This document shows positions 47,993 through 64,000 of a DNA stretch of 64,000 bases, one piece after another. The notes under the pieces were generated by a model, which was not told the DNA's origin, did not search any database, and was given only the letters and a program-made list of their open reading frames with translations. The first letter of the stretch is position 1. The number at the start of each line of letters is the position of its first letter. The translations under genes were made by a program, and so were the position numbers. Source of the stretch: Prevotella sp. (GTDB lineage Bacteria; Bacteroidota; Bacteroidia; Bacteroidales; Bacteroidaceae); NCBI GenBank assembly GCA_017478025.1, contig JAFVGZ010000003.1, forward strand, positions 301,744 through 365,743, in the 5' to 3' direction.

Positions 47993-48067
47993 CGCTTCGC
48001 TCGAAGTTAGAGAAGTTAGCGAAGTTAGAGAAGTTAGAGAAGTTAGAGAAGTTAGCGAAGTTAGCTT
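47993..48067. repeat. Tandem gttagagaa repeat
   Basis: Seven or so copies of a 9-bp unit (gttagagaa or gttagcgaa) directly after the fabD stop codon. Confidence 0.7.
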
Positions 48068-48072
48068 CTAAA

Positions 48073-48118
48073 AAGAACAATCCCGAAAACCTCCGTGGCT
48101 TTCGGGATTATTCTTTTT
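48073..48118 (+). terminator. fabD terminator
   Basis: A hairpin of at least 10 bp (aatcccgaaa paired with tttcgggatt) is followed by a T-rich run (attctttttatt), about 100 bases after the fabD stop codon. Confidence 0.85.
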
Positions 48119-48649
48119 ATTCCCCTCCCTCCCCTACAGGGCGTTAATTTTGCATTTTGAATTTTGAATTTTGCATTTTGAATTTTGAATTTTGCATTTT
48201 GAATTTTGCATTTTGAATTCTCAACTCTCAATGGTCAATCGTCAATGGTCCGCTCGGCCCTATGGGACGCTTGCGTAGTATAACGGAGCAAGAATGTTCA
48301 ATCCTCAATGCTCAATGGTCCGCTCGGCCCTATGGGACGCTTGCGTAACAAAGTGGAGCAAGAATTTTCAATTTACAATTTTCGTTGCCGTTTCGGAAAT
48401 AAATTCGCGGGGTGTTTTTTTGAAAGAAATTGGCATAATTAGAATAATTTTCGTTGTCAGACAGCCCAACTGCGCGAGCCTATTATTCCTATTCTTCGCT
48501 CATTTCTTTCTTTTCATAGGTGCTCAGGCGCTTCGCGGAGTCTTCCAATTTCTTTCAATCCCTCCTCCGATTTCTTTCCGTAGGAGGGGCTGATTCTTCG
48601 CTCTTCTCTTCACTCTTCACTTTTCACTCTTCCATAATTCTGCATTTTG
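48119..48649. repeat. Repeat-filled gap with two element B copies
   Basis: It holds about seven copies of gaattttgcattttga-type units (48140-48220), then two copies of element B in the minus direction (48250-48292 and 48320-48362), each preceded by a caatg-gtc phrase. The open frame 48294-48593 spans element B and low-complexity sequence and shows no recognisable protein. Confidence 0.65.
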
Positions 48650-48857
48650 AATTATTGGTGTCCGGTAAAAAGCCCTAAAGGGGCGAAAGACCACAGACGG
48701 GGGTATTAGCCCCCGTATCATTATGATTGCGTATTACGCAGAAGCCCTAAAGGGGCGACAGACCACAGGCGGGGGTGAAAGACCTGCTATTAGGGTCTAA
48801 TAGAGTAACTTTTAGAGGGTAAAAGACCTACTATTAGGAGGTAAAAGACCTGCTATT
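48650..48857. repeat. Cluster of three repeat types
   Basis: It begins with the 21-bp sequence shared with 7073-7093. Two copies of a roughly 34-bp unit (agccctaaaggggcga, then gaccacag and gcgggggt) start at 48671 and 48743. Three copies of a 16- to 17-bp unit (aaaagacctgctatta) lie near 48778, 48820 and 48842. No gene is visible. Confidence 0.65.
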
Positions 48858-49032
48858 ACAACACGCTGATTATCTGACGATTACGAGGTATACAATCGGC
48901 ACCTTTCTTAATGCAAAGGTACTAAATTATTCTGAATAATTCGTGATTTTGAAAAATAATTTTGCATTTTTCAAAATATATACACCTATTTTGACTTATA
49001 TCATTGTAATTCAGCTGTTTAAGCCTTTTTAG

Positions 49033-49087
49033 ATATACACCTATAACTACACTAGATATACACTAGATATACACTAAAAGTACACCT
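49033..49087. repeat. Iteron-like array, left arm
   Basis: Four units of about 11 bp (atatacacta type) ending gtacacct. The first 22 bp are exactly the reverse complement of 49574-49595. Together the two arrays form an inverted repeat around 442 bp of gene-free sequence. The flanks (about 48970-49032 and 49597-49660) also show weaker inverted similarity. Confidence 0.7.
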
Positions 49088-49242
49088 GGTCAAAGCCCTT
49101 GCCCAGAGGGCATCTCTCCCCCTAAGAGGAAAGAGGGAAGCCCCACCCCGTCCCTCCCCTGGGGAGGGGGAAGGGGCATTACAGGACACCTATCAGATTG
49201 AAGATTAAACTGTACTAGTGAGCCACTTTGGTCGCGCGTGCA

Positions 49243-49344
49243 AGTAACTTAGCTTACGCATGTGAGTAATTTCCGTTACGCTTGTAAGTAACTTCGCTTA
49301 TGCTTGTGAGTAACTTCGCCTACGCTTGTGAGTAACTTCGCCTG
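49243..49344. repeat. Tandem 22-bp repeat
   Basis: Four complete and one partial copy of a 22-bp unit (agtaacttcgcctacgcttg and variants) start at 49243, 49265, 49287, 49309 and 49331. It is related in its agtaactt core to the 17176-17255 cluster. It lies inside the iteron-flanked segment. Diverged element B copies follow at 49376-49414 and about 49477-49505. Confidence 0.75.
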
Positions 49345-49529
49345 TAGCCAGACAAGACACGAGAGGCAATTCGTTCGCTCGGCACTTTGTGACGCTTGCG
49401 TAAAGTATTGGAGCATTTAGAGCCCCTTGATAAGGGGCGGCTATAATGCAGGGTTAAAACGTAATTTGTCAATTTGTTCGCTCGGCTCTTAAAGAGACGC
49501 TTTTTTCTAAAGATAAAAAGAATTCGCTC

Positions 49530-49596
49530 AGGTGTATATTTGGTGTATATTTAGTGTATATTTAGTGTATATTTAGTGTAGTTATAGGTGTATATT
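49530..49596. repeat. Iteron-like array, right arm
   Basis: Five to six 11-bp units (gtgtatattta) with an interrupting gttatag, in inverted orientation to 49033-49087 but one unit longer. Confidence 0.7.
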
Positions 49597-49663
49597 AAAA
49601 ATGGGTTAATCCGTTTATTTTCTTGCAGTTACGGTATTGTTTGTGTATATATTTAAAAAAAAC

Positions 49664-49826
49664 TATGCCAAAATTATTTGAAAACAACGAGGAAAACTCT
49701 GTTCCAAACAGAGGAGCAGAAAAGAATCCAACCGCTTTTCGACTTGGAGAAACTCGTGAGGTGTATTGGGTGACGCATCGACAAGGTCAGGAAAAGGACA
49801 AGGACGACGAGAAAATAGAAGTATAA
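49664..49826 (+). CDS. Possible 54-residue protein
   Basis: A short charged product (starting MPKLFENNEENSVPNRG, ending DKDDEKIEV) with a plausible EVYWVTHRQG strand. There is no clear ribosome-binding site and no recognisable domain. The frame extends to 49623, but the ATG at 49664 is more likely. It could be a small gene at the edge of the defence operon or chance. Confidence 0.35.
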
Positions 49827-49977
49827 GAATTTTAATTTAAGAATATCAATACACATCAACTAACGAAACTCGCCAGCATGACCATTTTATCCCCTTCACT
49901 TAAAGCCTTCCACCTTCGTTATACATTAAAATAGGTAAAAATCGCGTTAAAGTATTACATGTTTCGATTTTTTTTGT

Positions 49978-49985
49978 TACCTTTG
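49978..49985 (+). promoter_or_regulatory. Putative -7 box of the defence operon
   Basis: TACCTTTG is identical to the -7 boxes of the S6 operon and mutA. A TTTG at the ideal -33 distance is not present. Transcription would begin near 49992, giving a leader of about 285 bases before the first gene of the operon. Confidence 0.5.
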
Positions 49986-50068
49986 CTCCCGCATTGTGGC
50001 TATTGCCTGAGTTTTTTTGACGAAAGGTGATGTAGATTGCTGCGATGTGAAGTATTTTATTGGCAAAG

Positions 50069-50270
50069 TTGATAGTATCAACTATCTGACAAGGTTCCAT
50101 ACTGCAAAGTCCTGGAAAAACTTTATTGGAACGAACCTTCGAGGAAGTTCGGTACGCCGTAATAGGCGTACCCTTTCTCTGTATTTCGTTCCAGCCTATT
50201 TTTCCAGGACAGGCGCAGTAAGGAAGTACGGTAAGAAGAGGGTACGTTCTTTTTTGCCTATTACGGAACT
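50069..50270 (+). ncRNA. Structured 5' leader RNA of the defence operon
   Basis: A 12-bp perfect stem (50109-50120 with 50199-50210) encloses a 9-bp stem (50127-50135 with 50185-50193). Inside lie a short hairpin (50137-50147) and an 8-bp hairpin with six-base loop (50151-50172, ggtacgcc paired with ggcgtacc). Downstream, 50256-50266 is an 11-base complement of 50157-50167, and 50240-50246 complements 50167-50173. These pairings would break the last hairpin, so two folds compete. A small palindrome (gttgat-atcaac) lies at 50069-50083. It could be a regulatory leader or a separate small RNA. Confidence 0.5.
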
Positions 50271-50277
50271 TAAATCA

Positions 50278-51147
50278 ATGAAGAAGATAAATAAGTACAC
50301 ATTTTCTGGGCACGAGTCATTTCCCTGCAAGTCATTGTGGCTGAAAAAGGGTTATGATTTTATAGTTGCTGGCAACGAGTTTAACAAACCTGATGCCGTA
50401 ATAGGTTTGGGAGTTGGTAAAAACATGGTATCATCCATTCGTTATTGGCTGAAAGTTTTCGGAATAACAGAAAATGATGAGATTACTTGGATGGGTAGCT
50501 ACCTATTCAATGAAAATGGCGGAAAGGACCAGTACCTTGAAGATATTGCTACGTTATGGTTATTGCACTTTACATTAGCATTCTCAGCCGAGGCAAGTCT
50601 ATACAACATGTTCTTTTGCGGATTGCAAAGAGAAAGAGCGCGTTTCGATAGAGAGCAAGTTGTAAATTATGTAAAACGAAAAATGATAGAGGCTGGAAAG
50701 GCTACAATGTTTAATGCGAATACTGTCAAAAAGGATGTAGCAGTATTGTTACAGAATTACGCATTACCCCGTAAACCTCAATCAAACGAAGATTACTCTT
50801 CTCTGCTGATAGATCTTGACTTGATAAGACAAGACCCTGAAGGAAAATCTTATTACTTCAATGTTGATGGAAAAAGGAAGGTCACGAATGAAATCTTTCT
50901 CTATGCTCTTTTAAAGTTAAGAGAACAAGAGCAAGATAACACCATTTCATATGAGACTATACAAGACAAAATAGGACTGATATTCTGCATGCAAGACTAT
51001 GAGACAATAGAAATGCTTAAGGCATTGTCTGATAAGTATAAGAAATACTTTACCTATAGTGATGTTGCAGGCATAAAACAAGTTCAGTTTACAGCAGACT
51101 TGGATAGTAAGAAAATTTTAGACAAATATTATGGTACGGACATTTAG
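50278..51147 (+). CDS. sspB: DUF4007 protein, SspB-like phosphorothioation nickase
   Basis: 289 residues. The N-terminus (KYTFSGHESFPCKSLWLKKG) with AVIGLGVGKNMVSSIRYW and WLLHFTLAFS is characteristic of DUF4007. In published Ssp systems, SspB has this domain and nicks DNA so that sulfur can replace a backbone oxygen on one strand. The order with the next two genes matches sspB-sspC-sspD. The frame is open from 50017, but those codons lie in the structured leader, so the ATG at 50278 is preferred. The stop overlaps the next gene by 17 bases. DNA here is clearly more AT-rich than in the flanks. Confidence 0.82.
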   Translation: MKKINKYTFSGHESFPCKSLWLKKGYDFIVAGNEFNKPDAVIGLGVGKNMVSSIRYWLKVFGITENDEITWMGSYLFNENGGKDQYLEDIATLWLLHFTLAFSAEASLYNMFFCGLQRERARFDREQVVNYVKRKMIEAGKATMFNANTVKKDVAVLLQNYALPRKPQSNEDYSSLLIDLDLIRQDPEGKSYYFNVDGKRKVTNEIFLYALLKLREQEQDNTISYETIQDKIGLIFCMQDYETIEMLKALSDKYKKYFTYSDVAGIKQVQFTADLDSKKILDKYYGTDI

Positions 51148-54100
51148 TTTATCCGCAAATATAGAAAATGGTTTTGCTGAGGGTACACATTATCTTGTAA
51201 CGCCCAATGCCCAAAAAGCAATACACAACATAGTAAATGATTTCCAATCCGGAATACATGCATTTACTATTATAGGTTCATATGGCACAGGTAAATCAAG
51301 TTTTCTTCTGGCATTAGAGGAAGATTTGAAGAAATCAAGCAAGAAGAAGATACTGTTTGACTCTAAAAACCTATCAAAGGCTAAAGACTATGAAATACTG
51401 AATATTGTAGGTGACTATTCGGAGTTATCTTCTTTGCTAAGCAAGGCATTAAATGTAGAAGGAAGTTCAACAAGCATACTTGATGAACTGAAAGCCTATT
51501 ACAATAAATGTCAAAAGAAAGGGAAATTTTGCGTTATTGTTATAGACGAGTTTGGCAAAGTGCTGGAGCATGCAGCCAAGAACAATCCAGAGAAGGAGCT
51601 ATACTTCTTGCAGAAGCTTGCGGAATACATTAATCTTCCATCACGCAATATTCTTCTTCTTACCACCTTGCATCAGAATTTTAGTGCTTATGCAAAAGGA
51701 CTTACAGAAGAACAAGCAAACGAATGGACTAAAGTTAAGGGGCGTTTCAAAGAGATTACTTTCGTAGAACCTGTAGAGCAGCTTCTGCATCTTGCATCTA
51801 TTCAACTTCAGGAAGGTAATAACAAACCAAATTTGGAGGATATTGATACCTTGTATGATTTGGCAAAAGATACTCAATTCGTATCTTCTACATTCTCCAA
51901 AGAAACAGCTCAGCAGCTTTATCCGTTAGACTTGTTTGCTGCATACTCTATTACAACAGCAATACAACGGTATGGTCAAAATGAGCGTTCACTCTTTACT
52001 TTTCTCGCATCAAAGGGAAGTAACTCAATAAGCGAATTTGAACCGGCAGAGCACCTTACTTATAATTTGTCAAAAGTCTATGACTATGTTCTGTATAATT
52101 TCTATTCATACCTGAAAGATGCGAATGCTGACTCTTTGAGTTGGAGCACAATGCAGCTTTCTATAGAAAGAGTAGAAGGTCAAAGCTGGGATAGCAAGGA
52201 AGAAATGTATCAGGCTGTAAACATCATAAAAGCCATAGGACTGCTTAATCTTTTCGGTACGGCATCCTTCAAGCTGACAGCTGAGCAATTGGCAACGTAT
52301 GCTAAGAATGCTATGACAATTGCCAACCCGGAATCTGTCATACAGAAACTTGTTTCCAAAAAGATTATAAGGTTTGCTGTCTATAAAGAGCGACTGATGT
52401 TGTTTGAGGGTACAGATGTTGACCTTGAGGCAGAAATCCGTGAGGCAGGAATGATGGTTGCCCGTCCTGTTGCCTTTGTTGACGAACTGAACTTATTCTT
52501 TAACAAGAGAATCTCTCCAGTTAAAGCTCATTTCTATCAAAAAGGCACGCCAAGATTCTTTGATTATATGATAAGAGAAGAGGCTTTGGACGCAGTTCCT
52601 ACAGGAGACACAGATGGATTTATTGAATTGATATTCTCAACACGAAAAAATGCTTTAGCAGAAATAAAGAAGGTAAGTGCTGAATGGGAACACGCATTAG
52701 TATTTGCTTACTTTACAAATACTGAAGACATAATAGATCACCTATACAACATCAAGAAGTATATGTATCTATTAGACAAGGTAATAGATAAGAATGATAA
52801 GGTTGCAGTCAATGAGATAAAGAAACTGAGGGAATATGAAGAGGATTTGCTGAACAAAGCGATAAGTGATAACTTGTTTGCATATAAGAATAGAGTCGTT
52901 TGGGTTTACAACGGCAAGGAGCAGAAGGTTGAGTCACATCGTGATTTCAACAAACTGCTTTCAAGAGTATGTAATGAGGTGTATCATAAAACGCCTGTAA
53001 TGAACAACGAACTGTTCAATAAGCACAAACTTAGCGGAACTATCTCATCTGCAAAAAAGAGCTATCTTACAAATCTAATAGAAAAATATACAGATGAAGG
53101 ACTTGGTTTCCCCGCAGATAAGTTTCCTCCAGAGAAGACAATCTATTCCTCTCTGTTATTGAATACTGGCTTGCATCGTGATGGAGAATTTTCAGATGCC
53201 CCTACAGATAAAGGCTTTATGCCTCTTTGGGATGCTTGTGAAGAATTCTTGAAGAGTACAGAAAATAAAGCTAGAAAGATATCTGAACTGATTAAGATAC
53301 TTTCTGCACAACCATATAAGATAAAACAAGGTTTCCTTGACTTCTGGATACCAACATACCTTTTTATCAAACGTCAGGATTTTGCGCTATATGATGCATC
53401 AAAGAAAGCATTCATGCCCAACGTGAATATGGAGTTCTTTGAGTTGCTGCAAAAACACCCATCAGATTTCGAAATTAAGAAGTTTGCAGTAGATGGCGTA
53501 AAACTTGGATTCTTCAATCAATATCGCAAATTTATAAACTTAGGTGATGAGTTTACTATCACTAGTGCAAGTTTTATTGAGACAATAAAACCTTTCCTTA
53601 GTTTCTATCTACGTCTTGATGAATATACGAAGAATACGAGGAAGTTTGATCACGAATCTACTATGAGGTTCCGTGATGTTCTTGCTAAGGCTAAAGACCC
53701 AGAGAAGGCTTTCTTTGAAGATTTGCCTGAAGCACTCGGTTTTGATAAAGCAAAACTTAAGGAAGAGGCATTCATTAACGAGTATGGCCAGATTATCCAA
53801 AGAGCCATTAGAGAATTGCGTTCCTGCTATTCACAACTGATAGACAGGATAGAAGCAAGACTCGTGGAAGAGTTTGGCTTGAACAGTTATGACTATAACG
53901 AGTATATACTGGAGATAAGACAAAGGTTGTCTAATGTGAAGTCATACCTCTTGACGGGCAAACAACGTGAGTTCTATCATCATGTAATGACAGAATATGA
54001 TAATAGGACACAATGGTATCAATCTATCTGTTATACCATCCTTGAACAACGCTTGGATTCTCTTCGTGACGAACAAGAAGATAAACTTGCTGATGACTTA

Positions 54101-54358
54101 GTTTATCTCTTTAGAGAGTGTGAGAAGTATTCTTCTATCTCTGCAAAAGAAGGTGCCTCAAGCAATAATGAGGCATATTCGTTTGACATGGTTACGAATA
54201 GAGGAACTAATGTAAGGACGCAAACCTATGTGCTTCCAGAAAAGGATAAGTCAAAGGCAGACGAACTGGAGAAGAAGATTAGCAAACTGCTCTCTGGAGA
54301 CAATAATGTTGATGTTTGCACTCTCTTGTCAATATTAAATAAGAAGATAAACAAATGA
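51131..54358 (+). CDS. sspC: Large P-loop ATPase, SspC-like
   Basis: 1075 residues. Walker A is GSYGTGKSS at 49-57 and Walker B is CVIVIDEFGK at about 134-143, followed by ILLLTTLHQNFSAYA. The rest (about 300-1075) is long, helical and charged, without further known motifs. Size, position after DUF4007 and the start (MVRTFSLSANIENGFAEGTH) fit the ATPase of single-strand phosphorothioation systems, which supports the nickase and sulfur transferase. It overlaps the genes on both sides (17 and 4 bases), so expression is tightly coupled. BrxC/PglY-type ATPases are an alternative relative, but PglZ is absent. Confidence 0.78.
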   Translation: MVRTFSLSANIENGFAEGTHYLVTPNAQKAIHNIVNDFQSGIHAFTIIGSYGTGKSSFLLALEEDLKKSSKKKILFDSKNLSKAKDYEILNIVGDYSELSSLLSKALNVEGSSTSILDELKAYYNKCQKKGKFCVIVIDEFGKVLEHAAKNNPEKELYFLQKLAEYINLPSRNILLLTTLHQNFSAYAKGLTEEQANEWTKVKGRFKEITFVEPVEQLLHLASIQLQEGNNKPNLEDIDTLYDLAKDTQFVSSTFSKETAQQLYPLDLFAAYSITTAIQRYGQNERSLFTFLASKGSNSISEFEPAEHLTYNLSKVYDYVLYNFYSYLKDANADSLSWSTMQLSIERVEGQSWDSKEEMYQAVNIIKAIGLLNLFGTASFKLTAEQLATYAKNAMTIANPESVIQKLVSKKIIRFAVYKERLMLFEGTDVDLEAEIREAGMMVARPVAFVDELNLFFNKRISPVKAHFYQKGTPRFFDYMIREEALDAVPTGDTDGFIELIFSTRKNALAEIKKVSAEWEHALVFAYFTNTEDIIDHLYNIKKYMYLLDKVIDKNDKVAVNEIKKLREYEEDLLNKAISDNLFAYKNRVVWVYNGKEQKVESHRDFNKLLSRVCNEVYHKTPVMNNELFNKHKLSGTISSAKKSYLTNLIEKYTDEGLGFPADKFPPEKTIYSSLLLNTGLHRDGEFSDAPTDKGFMPLWDACEEFLKSTENKARKISELIKILSAQPYKIKQGFLDFWIPTYLFIKRQDFALYDASKKAFMPNVNMEFFELLQKHPSDFEIKKFAVDGVKLGFFNQYRKFINLGDEFTITSASFIETIKPFLSFYLRLDEYTKNTRKFDHESTMRFRDVLAKAKDPEKAFFEDLPEALGFDKAKLKEEAFINEYGQIIQRAIRELRSCYSQLIDRIEARLVEEFGLNSYDYNEYILEIRQRLSNVKSYLLTGKQREFYHHVMTEYDNRTQWYQSICYTILEQRLDSLRDEQEDKLADDLVYLFRECEKYSSISAKEGASSNNEAYSFDMVTNRGTNVRTQTYVLPEKDKSKADELEKKISKLLSGDNNVDVCTLLSILNKKINK

Positions 54359-55455
54359 AAGTTAGACACATATTAGGTATCTCTGGCGGTAAAGATAGCG
54401 CAGCTTTAGCCATCTATCTGAAGAAAACATACCCTTCGCTAAAGATTGAGTATTACAATTCAGATACTGGATGTGAATTGGCTGAGACCGAAACACTCAT
54501 CAATCGTCTTGAGGCATACTTAGGAAAGATAGAACGCTTGAGGGCTGCCGAAGGTAGTCCTGAGCCAACTCCATTCCATCATTTCCTTAAAGCTATGGGT
54601 GGTTTCTTGCCATCTCCACAAGCAAGGTGGTGCACAAAGAAGATGAAGCTGGATAAGTTTGAGGAATATGTTGGTGATGACTATGCCGTTTCATACGTAG
54701 GTATAAGAGGTGACGAGGATAGAGATGGATACATTTCATCAAAGCCAAATATACAAGCGGTATTCCCATTCCGAAAAAACATATGGAGTATAGATGTCAT
54801 CAACAAGTTTCTTCATAAAGAAAATCTTGATCAGATAGTCAGCATCTATGAAAAACTTTGTCCAGAAGGTTTCCTGCGTGATGAGATTATAGAAGCCGTG
54901 AAGAAGCCTATCACGAAGCAGTTCTATTATTCAAAGAAACTGAATATGCTGCTCGATTATGATATTAAGTTGTTTAATCATGCGGTATTCGAGTTTCTGA
55001 AAACAACAGATTATCCTGTCGGGAAACTCGATGATTTCCCCTTACTGGATAATACAGATGTTCTCGTAAAGGAAGATATATTCAGACTTCTCCGAGAAAG
55101 TGGTGTGGGCGTTCCAGCTTATTACGAAGAGATTCCTTTCGAGGTTGATGGTGAGACAGGAACATACTGCAGAAGTCGCTCTGGTTGCTATTTCTGTTTC
55201 TTCCAGCAAAAGATAGAATGGATATGGCTCTACGAACAACACCCAGACCTTTATGAGAAGGCTATGGAGTTTGAGAAAGATGGTTATACATGGAACCAAA
55301 GCGAGAGTCTTGCTGACTTGATAAAACCTGAACGTGTACGCCAAATAAAGTTGGATATAATTCGCCGCCAAAAGGAGAGTCAGAAGAACAATAAGGGTAC
55401 AACCCTTGTTGACATCCTTGGTGACGATATAATGTGTACGAACTGTTTTATATAA
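54355..55455 (+). CDS. sspD: PAPS-reductase-like sulfur-transfer enzyme, SspD/DndC-like
   Basis: 366 residues of the PP-loop ATP pyrophosphatase superfamily. The PP-loop is SGGKDS at 10-15, with YYNSDTGCELAET following. Cysteines C93 (RWCTKKMK), C272, C278 and C281 (CRSRSGCYFC) are placed to bind a 4Fe-4S cluster as in DndC. A C-terminal CTNC adds two more. In known systems this enzyme activates the DNA backbone with ATP and inserts sulfur. Start and end overlap or closely abut the neighbours (4-base overlap, 10-base gap). Confidence 0.83.
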   Translation: MKVRHILGISGGKDSAALAIYLKKTYPSLKIEYYNSDTGCELAETETLINRLEAYLGKIERLRAAEGSPEPTPFHHFLKAMGGFLPSPQARWCTKKMKLDKFEEYVGDDYAVSYVGIRGDEDRDGYISSKPNIQAVFPFRKNIWSIDVINKFLHKENLDQIVSIYEKLCPEGFLRDEIIEAVKKPITKQFYYSKKLNMLLDYDIKLFNHAVFEFLKTTDYPVGKLDDFPLLDNTDVLVKEDIFRLLRESGVGVPAYYEEIPFEVDGETGTYCRSRSGCYFCFFQQKIEWIWLYEQHPDLYEKAMEFEKDGYTWNQSESLADLIKPERVRQIKLDIIRRQKESQKNNKGTTLVDILGDDIMCTNCFI

Positions 55456-55465
55456 GAAATGAGGT

Positions 55466-57691
55466 ATGCTATACGAAGTAGAATGGGCACTTGATGGAAC
55501 TTACAGGCCTGGCGAGGAAAACTCACCAGAGAAGTTCTTTAACGACTGTCTGGAAAATAGTAAAGAATTTGATTTGCAGTTGGGCTATTTTAGTTCAGCA
55601 ACGATAAGCGTGCTTGCTGATGGATTTGCTTCGTTCATAGCAAAAGGAGGAAAGATGCGATTGGTTATTAACCATATCGTTTCAGATAAGGACAAAGATG
55701 CTATAAGTAAAGGTGTTAATGGTGGGTATATTGATTGTTTTGATTTGACTGATTTTGAATCATTAAAGAACACCTTTGATGAATATCAGCAACAATTCTT
55801 TGATTGCCTTGCTTTCCTGATATACGAAAAACGAATAGAAATACGCATAATAAAACCTCGGAACAAAAAGGGTATTGCCCATACTAAATCTGGGCAGTTC
55901 CGTGATGGTGACAGCACTACATCTTTTACGGGGTCTGCCAACTTTACCATAAACGGTCTTTTCAATAATCTTGAAGAAATAAAGATTGACAGAAGCGATT
56001 CTGTTGATAAGATGGTTCAGAACCGGATAAAGAGCCAAAAGGAGGATTTTGACTCCATCATGATGTGTAAGAAACGCAATATTGAATACCTGTCACCAGA
56101 TAATTTGGTTTCTGCTATTACCACCAATTTTGGAGATAAGGACATAGAAGAGCTGCTTGATGTAGAGAACAAACTTCGTGAGATAAAGAGACGCAAGCAA
56201 GCAGAAGCAAAAGAGCGTGAAGGTCTTGTAACCGAACCTTGGGAAGATATAGAGCCACATTTCCCTTATCCATCTGGACCTCGTGAATACCAGAAGAAAG
56301 CCTTTGAGAATTGGAAAAACAATGGGCAGAGAGGCTTGTTTGCTATGGCTACTGGTACAGGTAAGACAATAACATCCTTGAATTGCCTTTACGAAATTTA
56401 CAAACGCAAAGGATATTATAAGGCTATAATACTTGTTCCTACCATCACCCTTGTCAACCAATGGGAGCAAGAATGTAGGAAATTTCAGTTCACGAATATC
56501 ACAAAGGTATATTCGAAGAATCCTAATTGGCGTGACGAGGTGGAACAAATAAGCTTTAAGGAGAAATATAAAAGTCCTAAAGAACCAGAGGTTTCATATA
56601 TTATTATTTCTACTTACGCATCCTATACGAGAGAAAAGGTCTTTAAGATTCTTAACAGCTTTGATAAGAAACGCCTGCTAATGATTGCAGACGAATGCCA
56701 CAATATGGCTTCAGGCTCATTAAGAAAGCGTCTCAAAGACATTCCATATCTAAGAAGGATAGGACTTTCTGCAACTCCAGAACGTCAGTTTGATGAAGAA
56801 GGTAATAAAAAATTGCGATATTTCTTCGGTTCAGAAGACCACTACACATATGAGTATAGTATGGAGGAAGCAATACATAATGGAGTCCTCTGTAAATATA
56901 TGTATTACCCACATTTGGTAAAGTTAATGCCGGAAGAGATGGATGAGTATGTGCGGTTATCAAATAAAATTGCGAGGTACTATAACTTTAATAAAGAGTG
57001 CTTTGATAATATTGATGAAGAACTTAAGAAATTATTATTAATAAGGAAGAAGATTGTTCATAAAGCTGCCCGAAAACTTGAAGCCTTCAAAGATATTGTA
57101 GAAAAGCGGTACCAAGAGAAAGGAAATTTGAAATTTACTCTAGTATATGTGCCAGAGGGCAATAAGCCTGACTATTTGGGTGAAAATGATGAGTTTGACG
57201 AATATGAAGATATTAAAGATGACAAAGAAGCAGAACACCTGATAGATCAATTTACCCAAGTCGTTGCGGACGTTGATGATCATATCACAGTCAGGAAATT
57301 CGTGTCCGGTCAAAAAGACAGAGAAGAAATTCTTGGTGATTTCGCTAGCGGAAAGCTCCAAGTACTCACTTCTATGAAATGTTTGGATGAAGGCGTAGAT
57401 GTTCCAAGGAGTGAACTTGCAATCTTTTGTTCTAGTACAGGTAATCCGCGCCAATTTATTCAGCGAAGAGGTCGTGTATTAAGGACACATCCTGACAAGA
57501 ACATGGCGGAACTCCATGACCTCGTAGTAGTTCCAGAAGTTAATCCTTATAGCGACTGTTACAGAATGGAACAATCATTGTTAAAAGGAGAACTCGCTCG
57601 TGTAAATAATTTTGCTCAACTATCAGAGAATCCTTCTTATTCAGAAATAGAGTTACGAGAAGTGTTAGATCATTATGGCCTAAATTTATAA
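55466..57691 (+). CDS. PLD-nuclease/DEAD-box helicase fusion
   Basis: 741 residues. The N-terminal part (1 to about 180) resembles a phospholipase-D nuclease: LQLGYFSSATISVLADGF, then HTKSGQFRDG and FTGSANFTINGL. The spacing from HxK to Asp is one residue longer than the usual HxK(x)4D. The helicase part has REYQKKAFENW (Q-motif-like), Walker A ATGTGKT at 295-301, ADECHNMASG (DECH at 409-412), GLSATPERQFD and motif VI FIQRRGRVLRTHP. It probably unwinds or cuts invading DNA. It stands where an SspF-, SspG- or SspH-type effector is expected; I do not assign the letter. Confidence 0.82.
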   Translation: MLYEVEWALDGTYRPGEENSPEKFFNDCLENSKEFDLQLGYFSSATISVLADGFASFIAKGGKMRLVINHIVSDKDKDAISKGVNGGYIDCFDLTDFESLKNTFDEYQQQFFDCLAFLIYEKRIEIRIIKPRNKKGIAHTKSGQFRDGDSTTSFTGSANFTINGLFNNLEEIKIDRSDSVDKMVQNRIKSQKEDFDSIMMCKKRNIEYLSPDNLVSAITTNFGDKDIEELLDVENKLREIKRRKQAEAKEREGLVTEPWEDIEPHFPYPSGPREYQKKAFENWKNNGQRGLFAMATGTGKTITSLNCLYEIYKRKGYYKAIILVPTITLVNQWEQECRKFQFTNITKVYSKNPNWRDEVEQISFKEKYKSPKEPEVSYIIISTYASYTREKVFKILNSFDKKRLLMIADECHNMASGSLRKRLKDIPYLRRIGLSATPERQFDEEGNKKLRYFFGSEDHYTYEYSMEEAIHNGVLCKYMYYPHLVKLMPEEMDEYVRLSNKIARYYNFNKECFDNIDEELKKLLLIRKKIVHKAARKLEAFKDIVEKRYQEKGNLKFTLVYVPEGNKPDYLGENDEFDEYEDIKDDKEAEHLIDQFTQVVADVDDHITVRKFVSGQKDREEILGDFASGKLQVLTSMKCLDEGVDVPRSELAIFCSSTGNPRQFIQRRGRVLRTHPDKNMAELHDLVVVPEVNPYSDCYRMEQSLLKGELARVNNFAQLSENPSYSEIELREVLDHYGLNL

Positions 57692-57706
57692 AAAAACAAA
57701 TAAACT

Positions 57707-57943
57707 ATGACAAACAAAGAAAGAATGTTGCATATGGTTCTTGACGATCCGAAATTGCAAGAACTATACGATTATGACAAATCTGAATACGAGGACTTAT
57801 ATCAGGCCCTAAATTCAGAAAATGTCGTCGTTGTTGCAGTAGCTCGTATTATAAAAGATTTAAACGGTTCTACAGAAGATAGCGACCAGAAGAAAGTTTA
57901 TATGACCGTGTTTAACTACATAAATGAGAATTACATACTATGA
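57707..57943 (+). CDS. 78-residue acidic protein of the defence operon
   Basis: A small helical protein (MTNKERMLHMVLDDPKLQEL, ending VFNYINENYIL) rich in Asp, Glu and Tyr. I do not recognise a family. It starts 15 bases after the helicase gene and its stop overlaps the start of the SMC-like gene (ATGA), so it is a real member of the operon and perhaps a subunit or adaptor of one of the two ATPases. Confidence 0.7.
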   Translation: MTNKERMLHMVLDDPKLQELYDYDKSEYEDLYQALNSENVVVVAVARIIKDLNGSTEDSDQKKVYMTVFNYINENYIL

Positions 57944-60066
57944 TTATACAAAAGATTGATATAGAGAATTTTCGAAGTTATTATAAAAAAAACACTTTCG
58001 AATTTATCAATGGACTCAACCTCATCATTGGATCAAATGGTGATGGTAAGACTACATTCTATGAAGCTCTTGAATGGTTATTCCGTACCGATGGTACAAA
58101 TAGAATGGATACCAAATTTATATCAAAGAAAAGAATAGATGAACTATTTGCCAATGAATCAGATGATGTTAGGGTATCAATGACATATGAGCATAAAGGT
58201 AAAACAAAGATTCTTGAGAAAATGTTCCACTTCACAAAGTCTTTTGATGGAGAAGTGAGTACATCTAATTATACCTTTAACCTTTTTGAAGATAATGGAG
58301 TAGAAAGAATTGCGAAAGATGGAATCCGTTTTGATTATGACTTACCCTCCGAAATCAGAAAATTCACGATGTTCAAAGGAGAAAGCGATCTTGATGTATT
58401 TCAAAATAGCAATTCCTTAAAATTACTTGTTGAAACCTTTAGTGATGTAAAAGACTTTGAGGCGTATTTCTCTTTCATGAAATATGCTTCAGAAAAGGCA
58501 GAACAAGCTCGCGAAAACGCTCAAAGATTAGACAAGAAAAATTCTGATAAAATTAAACAACTCAACAGAACAATTGAATTAGAAGTTGGTGCTCTGTCAG
58601 ATATTGAGCGCGAATTAAAGATAAAAGAAAATGAGGTTGTGAATTTTGAAAGTTTAATCAAAAACATTGAACAAAGTAAAGAAGCATCAAAACTTCTTAA
58701 TGCTGTTAATCGTAGAATTGAGACTATATCCAATAAACGTACGCAGACACAATCAAAAATAGACGAGAATTACACAATCAATTTATTAGACGATATGTGG
58801 ATTCTTATGGGTTTTAGTGATATTGCAGAAGAGTATTCAACTAAAGTTAACGATATTGATAAGAAACGAAGAAAGTTAGAGCAGAATTATCTTTATACTG
58901 CTGGCCAGGAAAAAGCCATCAAGAAAATGCAAACTGACTTTGTTCCACTACCTGTACATATTCCAGGACAGAAGATAATGCAGGAAATGCTAGATGAGGA
59001 AGTTTGTAAAATATGTGGACGTCCCGCAAAAAAACATTCTGAGGCATGGGAATTCATGCAGCACCGCTTGGAAGAATATAAAGAATCACTTAAGGTTCCT
59101 GAGGAGGATGAAATAGCTCCGTATTATGTTAATAATTATGTAGTGGAACTTCAAAAGCGTGATACAACTCTGAATGACAACTTATCAGAAATCACGAAAC
59201 TTCGTCATAAGATTCAGGAGGTTATGGCGTTTAACAACCGTATGCATAATGAGGTAAAGAAAATAGATACTAATCTAAATATTGAACTCGAACATAAAAA
59301 AAGAATATTAGCTCAAGCCGATGGTCTTTCAGAAGAACAACTCTTAGCTAATTTTGAGAACATTTCTAACTGGTTTGATCAAAAAAGTAATGCAGAAAAC
59401 AGAATCGGAACATTAAAACGTAAGAGAGAAGAGCATCGAGCTACTCTTGAAGAAGCTCAAGAGGCGCGTACAAAGTTAGCAGAAGGCACTTCTGCTGCTA
59501 TATATGCGAAGACTGCTATGATAATTGGTCACATATCAGATGCTTTCAAGAATGCAAAAGAAACAAACAAGAAGAATCTCCTTCATGCCATTGAAGATGA
59601 ATCTAATATCTTCCTTGAAAAATTGAATACCAATGATTTCAAGGGTACAATTAGAATACTGGAGAAGCCTAATGGACAGGGAGAAGCTGTATTGATGAAT
59701 AGTGATAATACTAGAATCTTTACGCCCAATACTGCATTACGTACAACTTATTTGATGTCTGTTCTATTTGCTATTGGAAAACTTTCAAGCGAAAGAGACG
59801 AAACTGAGTTCCCCCTTTTATTTGATGCTCCAACATCTTCGTTTACAGATGCAAAGGAGAGTGAGTTCTTTAATGTAATAGGCAAACTTAACAAACAAGT
59901 TGTTATTGTAACAAAGAGTTTCCTGAAAGAAAAAAATGGGGAAGTTATACTTGATACAGAAAAGACAGATGGCATTAAAGGTCGTGTATTCCGCATAGAA
60001 AAAAAGAAACCTTTTGATGACAAAAATCTGGCTACAATTCAAACTACAATTACTAAAATTAAGTAA
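57940..60066 (+). CDS. DndD/SMC-like ATPase with zinc hook
   Basis: 708 residues. It starts like Rad50, RecF and DndD proteins (MIIQKIDIENFRSYYKKNTF), with Walker A GSNGDGKTT at 31-39. Coiled coils lie at about 165-350 and 370-520, on either side of a CxxC hook (C356 and C359 in VCKICGRPAKKH). Walker B is FPLLFDAPTSSF (F628, D629). Such proteins in Dnd systems drive backbone sulfur modification with ATP, and in other systems act in restriction. Its position after the helicase fits the effector half. Confidence 0.78.
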   Translation: MIIQKIDIENFRSYYKKNTFEFINGLNLIIGSNGDGKTTFYEALEWLFRTDGTNRMDTKFISKKRIDELFANESDDVRVSMTYEHKGKTKILEKMFHFTKSFDGEVSTSNYTFNLFEDNGVERIAKDGIRFDYDLPSEIRKFTMFKGESDLDVFQNSNSLKLLVETFSDVKDFEAYFSFMKYASEKAEQARENAQRLDKKNSDKIKQLNRTIELEVGALSDIERELKIKENEVVNFESLIKNIEQSKEASKLLNAVNRRIETISNKRTQTQSKIDENYTINLLDDMWILMGFSDIAEEYSTKVNDIDKKRRKLEQNYLYTAGQEKAIKKMQTDFVPLPVHIPGQKIMQEMLDEEVCKICGRPAKKHSEAWEFMQHRLEEYKESLKVPEEDEIAPYYVNNYVVELQKRDTTLNDNLSEITKLRHKIQEVMAFNNRMHNEVKKIDTNLNIELEHKKRILAQADGLSEEQLLANFENISNWFDQKSNAENRIGTLKRKREEHRATLEEAQEARTKLAEGTSAAIYAKTAMIIGHISDAFKNAKETNKKNLLHAIEDESNIFLEKLNTNDFKGTIRILEKPNGQGEAVLMNSDNTRIFTPNTALRTTYLMSVLFAIGKLSSERDETEFPLLFDAPTSSFTDAKESEFFNVIGKLNKQVVIVTKSFLKEKNGEVILDTEKTDGIKGRVFRIEKKKPFDDKNLATIQTTITKIK

Positions 60067-60068
60067 CT

Positions 60069-60677
60069 ATGACTGATATTCTAAATAATATAGAGGAACG
60101 TATTGAAAAAGACGAAAAGCTTATTGACATCTGGGGACGCAGGAATCCAAGGCTTGAGAAAAAATACGAACAGAGTGTCATTAGAGTTATATCAGACTAT
60201 GGTGTTGGTGCCTCTAAATACACTAATGCCAAAGGTAAAATCTTAGGTGCAGGGTATGAACCATATATTATGGCTTTTTTTATTGGTTTATATGCTAATA
60301 AAAGATTGCCATTGACAGATGAAAACGAAGAATTAAAAGTATTAGGGCAACCTATACAGTATTGGGGAAACCTTGATTCAAAAAAATCCAGAAAGGCCTA
60401 TTCAGGTTTGAGGTCATATATATTCATTGCTCTTGTAGCAAAAACGGATATAGACTGGATTGCACTTGACAAGGGCGAAATAAAAGTAAGTACTGTCATA
60501 ACTAGTCTAATTGAAACGATGGAAGAGTATGCAAATTATGGTTTCTCTATAATGGAAGAGAAATTAAAAGAAGATCCTGGATATTTCTTTTCTCATCGAT
60601 CCTTCCTTGATATATTTCTACAATTAACAGATAAACAAACTATAGAAGATAATTCAGAAGAACTCGAGGACTTATAA
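60069..60677 (+). CDS. 202-residue protein of unknown function in the defence operon
   Basis: Predicted mostly helical. It has an N-terminal charged part (NNIEERIEKDEKLIDIWGRR), an aromatic segment (GAGYEPYIMAFFIGLYANKR) and an acidic C-terminus (DNSEELEDL). I recognise no domain; it is not a DndE by length or sequence. The start lies 2 bases after the SMC-like gene and the stop 10 bases before the next gene, so it belongs to the operon. The near-constant spacing in this operon argues for a stable complex. Confidence 0.7.
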   Translation: MTDILNNIEERIEKDEKLIDIWGRRNPRLEKKYEQSVIRVISDYGVGASKYTNAKGKILGAGYEPYIMAFFIGLYANKRLPLTDENEELKVLGQPIQYWGNLDSKKSRKAYSGLRSYIFIALVAKTDIDWIALDKGEIKVSTVITSLIETMEEYANYGFSIMEEKLKEDPGYFFSHRSFLDIFLQLTDKQTIEDNSEELEDL

Positions 60678-60687
60678 TATATAGGGT

Positions 60688-62877
60688 ATGGACTACATCG
60701 AAACTTTCAAAAATTTACGAACAAATAATAAATATGGACGCAAATCGCCCCATAAGGCGGTTTTAATGCTGACTGTCATAGAGCTCTATGAGCAAAACAT
60801 ATTGACAGAGAATGAAATATGTTACGATGATAAGTTAAAAAAAATGTTTTTGAAAGTATGGAATAAAGTTCTGCCCTATGAGCAGAAATTTCATCCTGAT
60901 GCATATTTACCTTATTGGTATCTACAGAATGATAGTTTCTGGCATATTGTACCTAAAAGAGATAAGGAAGCAATTCTTTCATCAATGCGTGACAATAGAG
61001 TAAAGCCTTCGGAAACGAGCCTGTATGATTCTGTAAAATATGCAGAACTTGATGAAGATTTGTATTTTCTAATGACTTTATCTTCCGGTCGTTCATCTTT
61101 GAAAAGAGTTTTGCTTGAAACTTATTTTGACTTGACAGATGAACAGATAGATAAATTATCAGAAAGCGTGGATAATTCGGTAGATTATTCTCTTTCTGCT
61201 ATTGCTGATTACGAACAAATACTTTCAAAAAAGCAAGACGAGACGAAGGTATATATTAACGAACCAGATAAAGAACTTACACGTCAATTCCATAGCTTTA
61301 ATGAAGACATACAGATTGTCCTTAATATACAATATTACACTTTCTTAAAGTCTCATCGCAATGAAAGGGAAGTATTCAAAGAACTCTTTCCAACAGTTTA
61401 TGACTTGCTTGATAAGATAATAAACGAACCCATTAAGCAAAGAGATATCTCACCATCATTTGCTTTTGTGTACGATAATTTCCTGTCAGATTTGAAGATA
61501 TCCTTGATGTCTGAAGATGATGCTATGTGTATAATTGATAAGATTACAGAAGCTATTGATTTATTGCGTGGCAATAATATTAAAGAAGTTAATTTAGGAA
61601 CTGTAGATGTAGCATCTAAAGACTCTTATTCAGATTCAAATCTTGATAACAACATCATATCTACTTCACAAAATGTCATTTTAGAAGAGGATTCTACAGA
61701 AACCAGGAAAGGTCAACCTTGGACGCAATACGAGGAGGAATTGATTTCTCTATATTATAATAAAGGTATGGATGTAAAATCAATTGCCGAAAGACAGGGA
61801 CGTACTGAAATCGCAATAAAATCACGTCTGGCTAAACTTGGCTTAATCGAATATACTTATCAAGCGGAAGAAGAAACAAATCATAATAATGATAACGAGT
61901 ATGAAATAAAGAATTATTCAACGAAATGCTTTATTCTTAATCAAGAGGGGAATATAGTATTTTCAGATGAGGGCATATTAATCAAAATAAATGGGGAGAT
62001 TTACAGATGTAAGTTGCAAAAAGTGTGTTTCACTATCAAGAAACTATTTGAAAAAGATGGTAACTGGTCAAAGGGGGGAAAGGTGATTGTTGCGTATTCT
62101 TCATCTGATTTGTATCCGGTTATTGACAATGACTCTATTGAAAAAATAGAAGATATTGTTTATACGCCAAATTTTGTTGGTAGTAAAATTAAAGTTGATG
62201 GTATATGGTATAATAATGAAGGTAATAGAATTTTTGTAGAAGATGAAGATAAGGGTTATTCCGAAGAAAACTCTTCATACAGGACAGAAAGAACTTCAGA
62301 GATCTATGTGCCCAAAGGCAAACTCAAGGCAATATCAGATATAGCAGAATGTTCATATGACTTTTTGTGGGTTATGGCTATCGTTGAATTTATGCAATTA
62401 AAACCACAACCTTCGGTACTTACATATGATAGAATGGCCTGCATGATGATTGCTATCGCATGGGAGCTAATGAATAACGAGGTAATAATAAAAGATACTG
62501 AAGATGAATTGTTGAAATGTGTCGAATTCTTGATAGAAGAGAATAAAGATAAACTTTCATGGAATTCGTCTCGTAGAGAAGTGTACAAAGCTATTGAGAA
62601 GTTTCCTATGTATGATGTCTTTGAGGATACTGTAGATAGCATTCTTGAAGTGTCTCCGTTAAATGTATTGAGAGCATGGTTTAAAGATGAAAACAAAGAG
62701 GAGATTATAGAGCTTTCTAAAGATTTTGAGAAGGCTTGTCTCTATGCGATTTATTCAGACAAGCGTGAACCTTATATAGTGGTTAATAAAAAATGGCAAC
62801 GCTCTTTGTTTCTTGAATATGACAATCTAATGAATTATTTTAAGAATGAGTATCTGGATTTCCTTGAAAATTGCTGA
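60688..62877 (+). CDS. Sulfur-binding-domain protein with Myb-like helix-turn-helix
   Basis: 729 residues in several parts. The first 150 or so match the ScoMcrA-type DNA sulfur-binding domain: GRKSPHKAVLMLTVIELY (residues 17-34), HPDAYLPYWYLQNDSFW (69-85) and LKRVLLETYFDLT. A linker region follows. At about 342-387 is a Myb/SANT-like helix-turn-helix (QPWTQYEEELISLYY, SIAERQGRTEIAIKSRLAKL). The last 180 residues (IVEFMQLKPQP, RMACMMIAIAWEL, SPLNVLRAWF) resemble tails I associate with Bacteroidota DNA-acting proteins. No HNH nuclease motif is visible. It probably reads phosphorothioate DNA. Confidence 0.75.
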   Translation: MDYIETFKNLRTNNKYGRKSPHKAVLMLTVIELYEQNILTENEICYDDKLKKMFLKVWNKVLPYEQKFHPDAYLPYWYLQNDSFWHIVPKRDKEAILSSMRDNRVKPSETSLYDSVKYAELDEDLYFLMTLSSGRSSLKRVLLETYFDLTDEQIDKLSESVDNSVDYSLSAIADYEQILSKKQDETKVYINEPDKELTRQFHSFNEDIQIVLNIQYYTFLKSHRNEREVFKELFPTVYDLLDKIINEPIKQRDISPSFAFVYDNFLSDLKISLMSEDDAMCIIDKITEAIDLLRGNNIKEVNLGTVDVASKDSYSDSNLDNNIISTSQNVILEEDSTETRKGQPWTQYEEELISLYYNKGMDVKSIAERQGRTEIAIKSRLAKLGLIEYTYQAEEETNHNNDNEYEIKNYSTKCFILNQEGNIVFSDEGILIKINGEIYRCKLQKVCFTIKKLFEKDGNWSKGGKVIVAYSSSDLYPVIDNDSIEKIEDIVYTPNFVGSKIKVDGIWYNNEGNRIFVEDEDKGYSEENSSYRTERTSEIYVPKGKLKAISDIAECSYDFLWVMAIVEFMQLKPQPSVLTYDRMACMMIAIAWELMNNEVIIKDTEDELLKCVEFLIEENKDKLSWNSSRREVYKAIEKFPMYDVFEDTVDSILEVSPLNVLRAWFKDENKEEIIELSKDFEKACLYAIYSDKREPYIVVNKKWQRSLFLEYDNLMNYFKNEYLDFLENC

Positions 62878-63048
62878 ATTGTTACAAGAACGAAAATGAA
62901 TTGATAATTTAATGAATTAGGTGATATGAATATGAAGTCTTTTCTTTTGGGTGTTGTTGAGTTTCCTGGGGTCGCCAGTCCTTATTGCTATCATACTGCT
63001 GATTGTGGGCAATAACGAGAAGGGGACATTGACCATTGACGATTGAAC

Positions 63049-63224
63049 ATGCCACAGGGGACAGCCCCTTGTTATACAGAGTTGGTTAGTGCCACTAACC
63101 AACTGAAATGGAGTGCTGCCCTTGAAGCCAAGATAGACCAGACGCTTTCGGAAACATTGACAATTGAACATTGAGCATTGACCATTGACGATTGACCATT
63201 GAGGATTGACCATTGATTAAGATT
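63049..63224. repeat. Fragment and attgacc tandem repeats after the operon
   Basis: A short open stretch (from ATG 63049, with ATNQLKWSAALEAKIDQTLS) looks like the end of a broken gene I do not recognise. It is followed by about seven copies of a 9- to 10-bp unit (attgaccattgacg) at about 63155-63218. The same unit is present once at about 63027-63048. Between 62878 and 63048 nothing else is visible. Confidence 0.5.
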
Positions 63225-63877: not shown

Positions 63878-64000
63878 AAACCAAACTTTTTGGATTAAAA
63901 GTGAGGCATTTTAACAATTCTTGTCTATTGATTGCATTTACACGCAGCATTCATGCCCTGTTTTCAATGTAAATTGCGACAGGGCTCTGCTGTGATGTGA

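Follow-up and report, generated by a model that had tools for sequence, protein, structure and literature searches.

Which effector accompanies an Ssp modification module when its operon contains no SspE? The question is raised by a stretch of 64,000 nucleotides (nt) from Prevotella sp. (contig JAFVGZ010000003.1), hereafter the window, in which eight plus-strand open reading frames form one tight operon at 50278-62877. The distances between neighboring genes, from gene 1 to gene 8, are -17, -4, +10, +15, -4, +2, and +10 nt. The initial annotation had described eight genes that overlap or are spaced by 15 bases or less, and the frame coordinates and the measured gaps agree with it. Genes 1 to 3 are sspB, sspC, and sspD, the predicted writer of DNA phosphorothioate (PT). 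Genes 4 to 7 are, as judged from their sequences and, for gene 5, from its position, the PbeABCD cassette, an effector published with DndCDEA in archaea. Gene 8 encodes a protein with a sulfur-binding domain (SBD). The components are already known; what appears to be new here is the pairing of Ssp with Pbe within the known PT defense. The features are listed in Table 1.

Table 1. Predicted features of the ssp-pbe operon and its leader in the window (aa, amino acids)
Feature	Position	Strand	Size and basis
Promoter-like -7 motif TACCTTTG	49978..49985	+	predicted, read in the sequence
Structured leader RNA	49986..50277	+	292 nt; folding z-score, covariation
sspB (DUF4007)	50278..51147	+	289 aa; PF13182 6.6e-81; PADLOC SspB 1.2e-90
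sspC, P-loop ATPase	51131..54358	+	1075 aa; PADLOC SspC 1245 bits; Walker A/B
sspD, PP-loop sulfurtransferase, PAPS-reductase-like	54355..55455	+	366 aa; PADLOC SspD 1.7e-86; SGGKDS
pbeA, HKD/PLD nuclease-SF2 helicase fusion	55466..57691	+	741 aa; PADLOC PbeA 1049 bits
Small protein at the pbeB position	57707..57943	+	78 aa; relatives have a small protein of similar size here
pbeC, ABC/SMC-like ATPase, CxxC motif of zinc-hook type	57940..60066	+	708 aa; PADLOC PbeC 8.4e-20
pbeD (dnd_assoc_4 group)	60069..60677	+	202 aa; linked to TIGR04062 via relatives
Gene 8, modular reader protein (predicted)	60688..62877	+	729 aa; SBD ~1-150, middle module ~330-515, C-terminal module ~545-729

The assignment of genes 1 to 3 to sspB-sspC-sspD had been made before any database search. 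It is confirmed by the Pfam and PADLOC matches: in the comparison with the Ssp, Dnd, and BREX families by hidden Markov models, the best matches are Ssp models and neither BREX nor Dnd. The best non-Ssp family for SspC is BrxC, with 219 bits against the 1245 bits of the SspC model. DndC was rejected as the identity of gene 3, which matches DndC at 3e-6 and SspD at 1.7e-86. The reading frame of sspB is open farther upstream, with a TTG at 50017; the product starting from the ATG at 50278 matches the DUF4007 model end to end (residues 9-285). A motif check of the translations found the catalytic or nucleotide-binding motifs intact in SspC, SspD, PbeA, and PbeC. There is no SspA desulfurase within the operon. 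Two cysteine desulfurase homologues are encoded elsewhere in the genome (1.9e-30 and 2.4e-29, 28-30% identity). SspE is not among the PADLOC matches listed for the eight proteins; two GmrSD_N proteins are encoded elsewhere, in frames of 608 and 415 aa.

PbeA carries the motifs HxK...GSAN, GTGKT, DECH, and QRRGRVLR. Because the PADLOC PbeA model fits the group of the window closely, PbeA proteins of this kind are already known. PbeA also matches TIGR04095 (dnd_restrict_1, "DNA phosphorothioation system restriction enzyme") at 2.9e-117 and 392 bits, below the model cut-off of 600. In gene 6, the PbeC of the window carries GSNGDGKT and CKIC, and CxxCxRxA is invariant in all seven aligned PbeC homologues. 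This motif fits the hook-cysteine ATPase named CxC, which is equated with PbeC in the accessible text of Rakesh et al. 2024 (PMC10853773); the other papers cited below are likewise represented by their accessible text. No relative of PbeC was found in viral contigs, and the PbeC search of plasmids gave no match. Gene 7 by itself reaches 0.035 against TIGR04062, below the cut-off. This model is matched by 16 of its 47 aligned relatives (best 9.3e-9) and by 16 of 24 in a wider set of relatives (best 2.9e-49). Annotated dnd-linked plasmids have the gene order of restriction enzyme, small protein, AAA ATPase, and "DNA phosphorothioation-associated protein 4". Gene 7 is taken as PbeD because its relatives match TIGR04062 and because these plasmids show the same four-gene order. 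The search of solved structures with PbeD gave no credible match (best E 0.057). Many PbeD proteins of Bacteroidales end with a short acidic tail, for example PESLD, PEEL, or EDL, which may serve for docking. Gene 5 is called PbeB by its position and size alone.

The initial annotation had listed a PLD-helicase, a 78-aa protein, a DndD/SMC-like ATPase, and a 202-aa protein of no known family as additions to an SspFGH-type system. All four genes are present, but they are one known cassette, PbeABCD, and not extras. For this reason, the locus reads better as an Ssp writer with a Pbe effector than as SspFGH with additional genes, and the SspFGH-type variant is disfavored. The names SspF, SspG, and SspH are absent among the PADLOC matches listed for the eight proteins, in which no SspFGH sequences were compared.

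The unit is conserved. A PbeA alignment was scanned against named bacterial and archaeal genomes, and the best 80 of at least 444 confirmed relatives were kept; the best-matching ones are titled Prevotella and other Bacteroidales. The ssp genes are present at 76 of these 80 loci, a figure that describes the nearest relatives because of this selection. The four loci without ssp (L108, L113, L121, and L137) have less than 2 kb of sequence 5' of pbeA. The complete set of six long core genes was found at 66 loci, and all 66 have it in the same order and on the same strand, which rules out a chance neighborhood of ssp and pbe.

The gap between sspD and pbeA is shorter than 100 nt at 43 of the 76 loci, between 100 and 1000 nt at three, and longer than 1 kb at 30. 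The inserts in this slot (L077 to L156) cluster near 1.8, 2.1, 2.3, 3.6, 4.0, and 4.8 kb. Their cargo includes DndB homologues (five loci), a GHKL ATPase (nine), SspE homologues (four), and others, such as a BrxD-like ATPase. The DndB insert comes with a 180-aa protein and the GHKL ATPase with proteins of no assigned family, and a DndB homologue lies downstream of pbeA at two further loci. The four loci with an SspE homologue between sspD and pbeA hold two effectors in one operon. Two of these homologues were scored against the PADLOC SspE model, L098:7708-9993 at 1e-269 and L139:6790-9099 at 3e-266. SspA-type desulfurases were found at three of the 80 loci by a seed-based search.

Genome samples show the same association. 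Of the 395 genomes sampled from the class, five have PbeA (E<=1e-40), 15 have DUF4007 (E<=1e-10), and four have both; in all four, they lie on one contig and at most 15 kb apart (hypergeometric probability 6.7e-6). One of these four, L065 in a genome of the same genus as the window (G199), is a degraded ssp-pbe copy. Its sspC frame is interrupted, its PbeA is shortened, and neither pbeC nor pbeD is matched in the stretch. In a second sample, PbeA is present in 10 of 375 Bacteroidota genomes, accompanied by ssp in seven, by dnd in two, and by neither in one. This sample overlaps the earlier ones, its center (G730, counted among the ssp cases) was picked because it carries the operon, and several of the ten loci were read from stretches fetched earlier and matched by contig number and position. 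The "Clostridium sp." title of the G730 locus (L145) is probably wrong, because its phylum search returned contigs already seen in the class of the window. Caution also applies to the Bacilli and Erysipelotrichaceae titles of L134 and L135.

The pairing is also observed outside Bacteroidota. The 16 inspected records among 24 plasmid PbeA records have dnd (six), ssp (two), methyltransferase genes (four), or, by the analyst's label, none of them (four); for one of the last four, L168, a DNA adenine methylase is annotated nearby. A Sphingomonadaceae plasmid carries, in a single row, genes for cysteine desulfurase, DUF4007, an SspC homologue, and PAPS reductase, followed by PbeA, a small protein, an AAA ATPase, and a 148-aa protein, and this row is read as sspABCD-pbeABCD. 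A Rhizobium indigoferae plasmid has its ssp genes next to pbe, the two sets lying on opposite strands. Both plasmids are alphaproteobacterial. Four clones from human feces, titled "Bacteriophage sp." and unverified, also contain PbeA. Three of the four have ssp genes, and SspD is recognized in only one of these three.

In the PbeA tree of 56 rows, 39 of them linked to ssp, the ssp label needs four changes, and at least two are forced by well-supported branches. When the tree was rebuilt without the long-branch rows L171 and L189, five changes were needed, and a single clade of all ssp-linked PbeA was rejected by the approximately unbiased test (p = 1.1e-7), with the caution that few rows (15 of 54) represent partners other than ssp and that L167 is a remaining long branch. 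On the sample analyzed, the Ssp-Pbe pairing probably arose more than once. Distances were compared over 40 non-redundant loci, obtained from 60 complete ones by removing near copies. They are correlated within the modules: 0.92 for SspB-SspC, 0.93 for SspC-SspD, 0.89 for PbeC-PbeD, 0.60 for PbeA-PbeC, and 0.56 for PbeA-PbeD.

Gene 8 is modular. A profile of its SBD, built from 11 aligned sequences, matches SBDHga (PDB 8h0l) at 2.9e-18, so the sulfur-binding domain suspected in the last gene is real. NF045808 covers residues 3-148 at 6.3e-9, under the model cut-off. The middle module gives weak helix-turn-helix matches (Pfam 0.016, PDB 2lvs 0.0033). In six relatives (L090, L092, L093, L094, L097, and L104), a middle module of this type is fused to the C-terminus of PbeD, and in L090 and L092, the fusion gene is also followed by a stand-alone SBD gene. 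The C-terminal module is exchangeable among relatives, and its relative is a separate gene in L104. Pfam shows no nuclease domain in gene 8. Other SBD arrangements were observed. L122 has an SBD gene with an HNH domain. Another Ssp-like locus (L067:7501-8766, minus strand, genome G188) has an SBD joined to DUF4007, adjoining an SspD-like gene. At L077, L079, and L080, two consecutive SBD genes lie 3' of pbeD, one gene-8-like and one stand-alone, of 179-189 aa.

How would these parts work together? It is rather likely that Ssp makes single-stranded PT marks, that Pbe acts on unmarked DNA, and that the product of gene 8 recognizes the mark and interacts with PbeD. SspB, SspC, and SspD, together with a cysteine desulfurase encoded elsewhere, would place single-stranded PT marks onto the host DNA; in the known Ssp cases, the mark is 5'-C(PS)CA. 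PbeC, with its CxxC hook, and PbeD would scan DNA, and PbeA, with its HKD nuclease and SF2 helicase, would block or damage DNA without marks. The SBD of gene 8 would bind PT marks, and its middle module would couple it to PbeD, making gene 8 a self-recognition adaptor or a brake. The structured leader RNA may limit the expression of the operon. Another Ssp effector, SspFGH, damages unmodified DNA (PMC8092258).

Several observations weigh against this reading. The accessible text of Xiong et al. 2019 (PMC6459918) reports that no cleavage of viral DNA by PbeABCD was observed. The 78-aa product of gene 5 has no family match in the Pfam, PADLOC, and TIGR/NF model searches. The PbeC model is the best PADLOC match of gene 6 with a weak E-value, and LmuB is next at 5.2e-19. 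PbeD is a DndE cognate according to Rakesh et al. (PMC10853773), and hhalign gives a probability of 3-5% (P 0.014 and 0.008) for PbeD against the DndE fold of two ribbon-helix-helix units, values that leave PbeD a possible DndE-type protein. SBD genes were found at only 20 of the 80 loci, some of which are incomplete (17 of the 20 genes lie downstream of pbeA on the same strand), and gene 8 is thus accessory. Between the modules, the distances of SspB, SspC, and SspD do not correlate with those of PbeC or PbeD (r -0.03 to -0.09, Mantel p 0.71-0.92), and those of Ssp and PbeA correlate weakly (r 0.19-0.21, Mantel p 0.001-0.002). Tight co-evolution of Ssp and Pbe is not supported by these values.

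The opposite polarity, in which PT marks switch PbeABCD on as they do with SspE and the SBD protein is the activating sensor, seems unlikely and is the strongest competitor. An SBD is indeed encoded in the operon, SspE occupies the slot between sspD and pbeA at the four loci described above, and Xiong et al. (PMC6459918) left open that Pbe proteins sense PT in order to act. Such a sensor would be missing from most loci by the SBD count given above, however, and Pbe cassettes are also found beside methyltransferase genes or with no annotated modification gene nearby. PT-modified virus, moreover, escaped DndCDEA-PbeABCD (PMC6459918).

The between-module distances lead to a second alternative, that two independent defense modules merely travel together in one operon and Pbe does not read PT here. 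These weak or absent correlations can be read as module exchange, with the mark as the shared interface; they are equally the best evidence for independent modules. A similarly low value, 0.107, was reported for DndCD and PbeAC (Xiong 2019, PMC6459918). Other defense-like cargo at the 30 loci with long sspD-pbeA gaps and the existence of Pbe cassettes with no recognized modification gene nearby also fit independence. On the other hand, the order is fixed, the gap is below 100 nt at most of the 76 loci, the pairing probably has more than one origin, and Pbe elsewhere partners Dnd, another PT writer. We consider independent modules improbable. It is very improbable that the Ssp marks function chiefly in regulating genes or in redox processes and that Pbe scans or repairs DNA without a part in defense. 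Redox and transcription functions have been ascribed to PT where restriction partners are absent (PMC8053081), but PbeA has nuclease-helicase motifs and antiviral activity is published for systems containing each module (PMC8092258, PMC6459918).

A broader proposal than the marking of self DNA against Pbe is offered tentatively, as a possibility that we rather doubt. Ssp-Pbe would be a distinct, recurrently assembled class of PT defense, in which a Pbe complex of the CxxC-ATPase and PbeD reads single-stranded PT, a dedicated SBD adaptor docks on PbeD via a module that is sometimes fused to it, and, in one Prevotella-type branch, a new leader RNA attenuator with alternative folds gates the operon. 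Modification and effector modules would be swapped freely because the mark, and not protein contact, would be the shared interface.

The leader upstream of sspB is probably a cis-regulatory RNA of the operon. The segment 49986-50300 folds at -114 kcal/mol (z -7.4), and none of 100 shuffles is as low. Leader homologues were found before sspB at eight of the 80 loci (E<=1e-8). Across an alignment of nine rows, two-sided compensatory changes occur at 13 of the 74 consensus pairs, against 3.6 +/- 1.5 in shuffles. When the partners were slid as a control, pairing fell from 96% to 41-49%, with one to eight two-sided pairs, eight at slide +3. This covariation is strong and not final, because the aligned rows are close relatives and the same alignment also supplied the structure. 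At the apex of a hairpin, CCGTAATAGGC (50157-50167) is complementary to a segment immediately 5' of sspB, GCCTATTACGG (50256-50266), and CGTACCC in the arm of this hairpin is complementary to GGGTACG, which is followed by a T-rich run. Because of both complementarities, the leader may have alternative folds and act as an attenuator. It has no match in Rfam, its core has no exact match in viral contigs, and it was not found in plasmids; within its own genome, the sole other match is its own inverted repeat. It is a candidate new regulatory RNA. TANNTTTG is present 5' of sspB in all eight relatives with a homologous leader. The -7 motif TACCTTTG is presumably of the Bacteroidales type.

The operon lies in an AT-rich block. 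The GC content, calculated over 2-kb intervals, is 0.33-0.39 from 50 to 63 kb and 0.47-0.53 up to 49 kb. Short interspersed repeats, some of them inverted, are found on both sides, at 48000-50000 and 62900-63220. By eye, the segment 63200-63500, 3' of gene 8, resembles part of a RhuM-type gene that is interrupted by an in-frame stop. The window ends with its contig, at position 64000, and the source genome is 2.93 Mb in 43 contigs with a completeness of 84.7%.

How does Ssp-Pbe compare with the systems already described? BREX type 4 (brxPCZL) shares SspB/SspC/SspD-like proteins with the window. It was rejected, as neither PglZ nor BrxL is among the matches listed for the eight proteins and the SspC score far exceeds the BrxC score. 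SspABCD-SspE has SspBCD in common with the window, whose operon is without SspE. SspBCD-SspFGH of Vibrio anguillarum FF-93 (PMC8092258) also shares SspBCD; the only features described for its effector are the Walker A motif of SspF and the resemblance of SspH to FtsK/SpoIIIE, whereas the window has PbeABCD. The CxC ABC-ATPase/DndE-anchored systems of Rakesh, Aravind, and Krishnan (PMC10853773) have the PbeA/B/C/D composition and the hook-cysteine ATPase in common with the window. In the accessible text, they are described with Dnd, and Ssp is described as lacking a DndE cognate, with sspB in its place. In contrast to that account, the ssp operon of the window holds a PbeD gene. In PMC7464106, pbeA-D are counted with "PT-modifying genes", among which ssp is not separated in the accessible text. 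No description of ssp combined with pbe was found in the literature text searched, which did not extend to figures and supplements, so that one may be in print.

Among 2,678 sspBCD clusters, 196 have sspFGH nearby, 199 have sspE, and a further 36 have both (Wang 2021, a BLAST search with two reference strains), which means that most sspBCD clusters have no known effector. Of 553 pbeAC pairs, 320 are without dndCD, and 165 of these 320 have no modification gene nearby (Xiong 2019, PMC6459918). Ssp-Pbe operons could explain a part of both the sspBCD set without a known effector and the dndCD-less pbeAC set. Their loci also offer a modular protein that has an SBD and a link to PbeD, operons with the two effectors SspE and Pbe, and the candidate regulatory RNA.

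Among the closest known systems is DndCDEA-PbeABCD of Haloterrigena jeotgali A29 (Xiong 2019, PMC6459918), which has the same pbeA-B-C-D order beside PT modification genes. The partners of Pbe listed there are Dnd or a methyltransferase, both, or none. In H. jeotgali, Dnd is the modifier, whereas the window has SspBCD instead, together with an SBD protein and a structured leader. The Ssp-Pbe operon shows Pbe next to a PT writer other than Dnd: the known Ssp sulfur-marking machine appears here joined to the known virus-blocking Pbe cassette, which was described earlier with a different marking machine.

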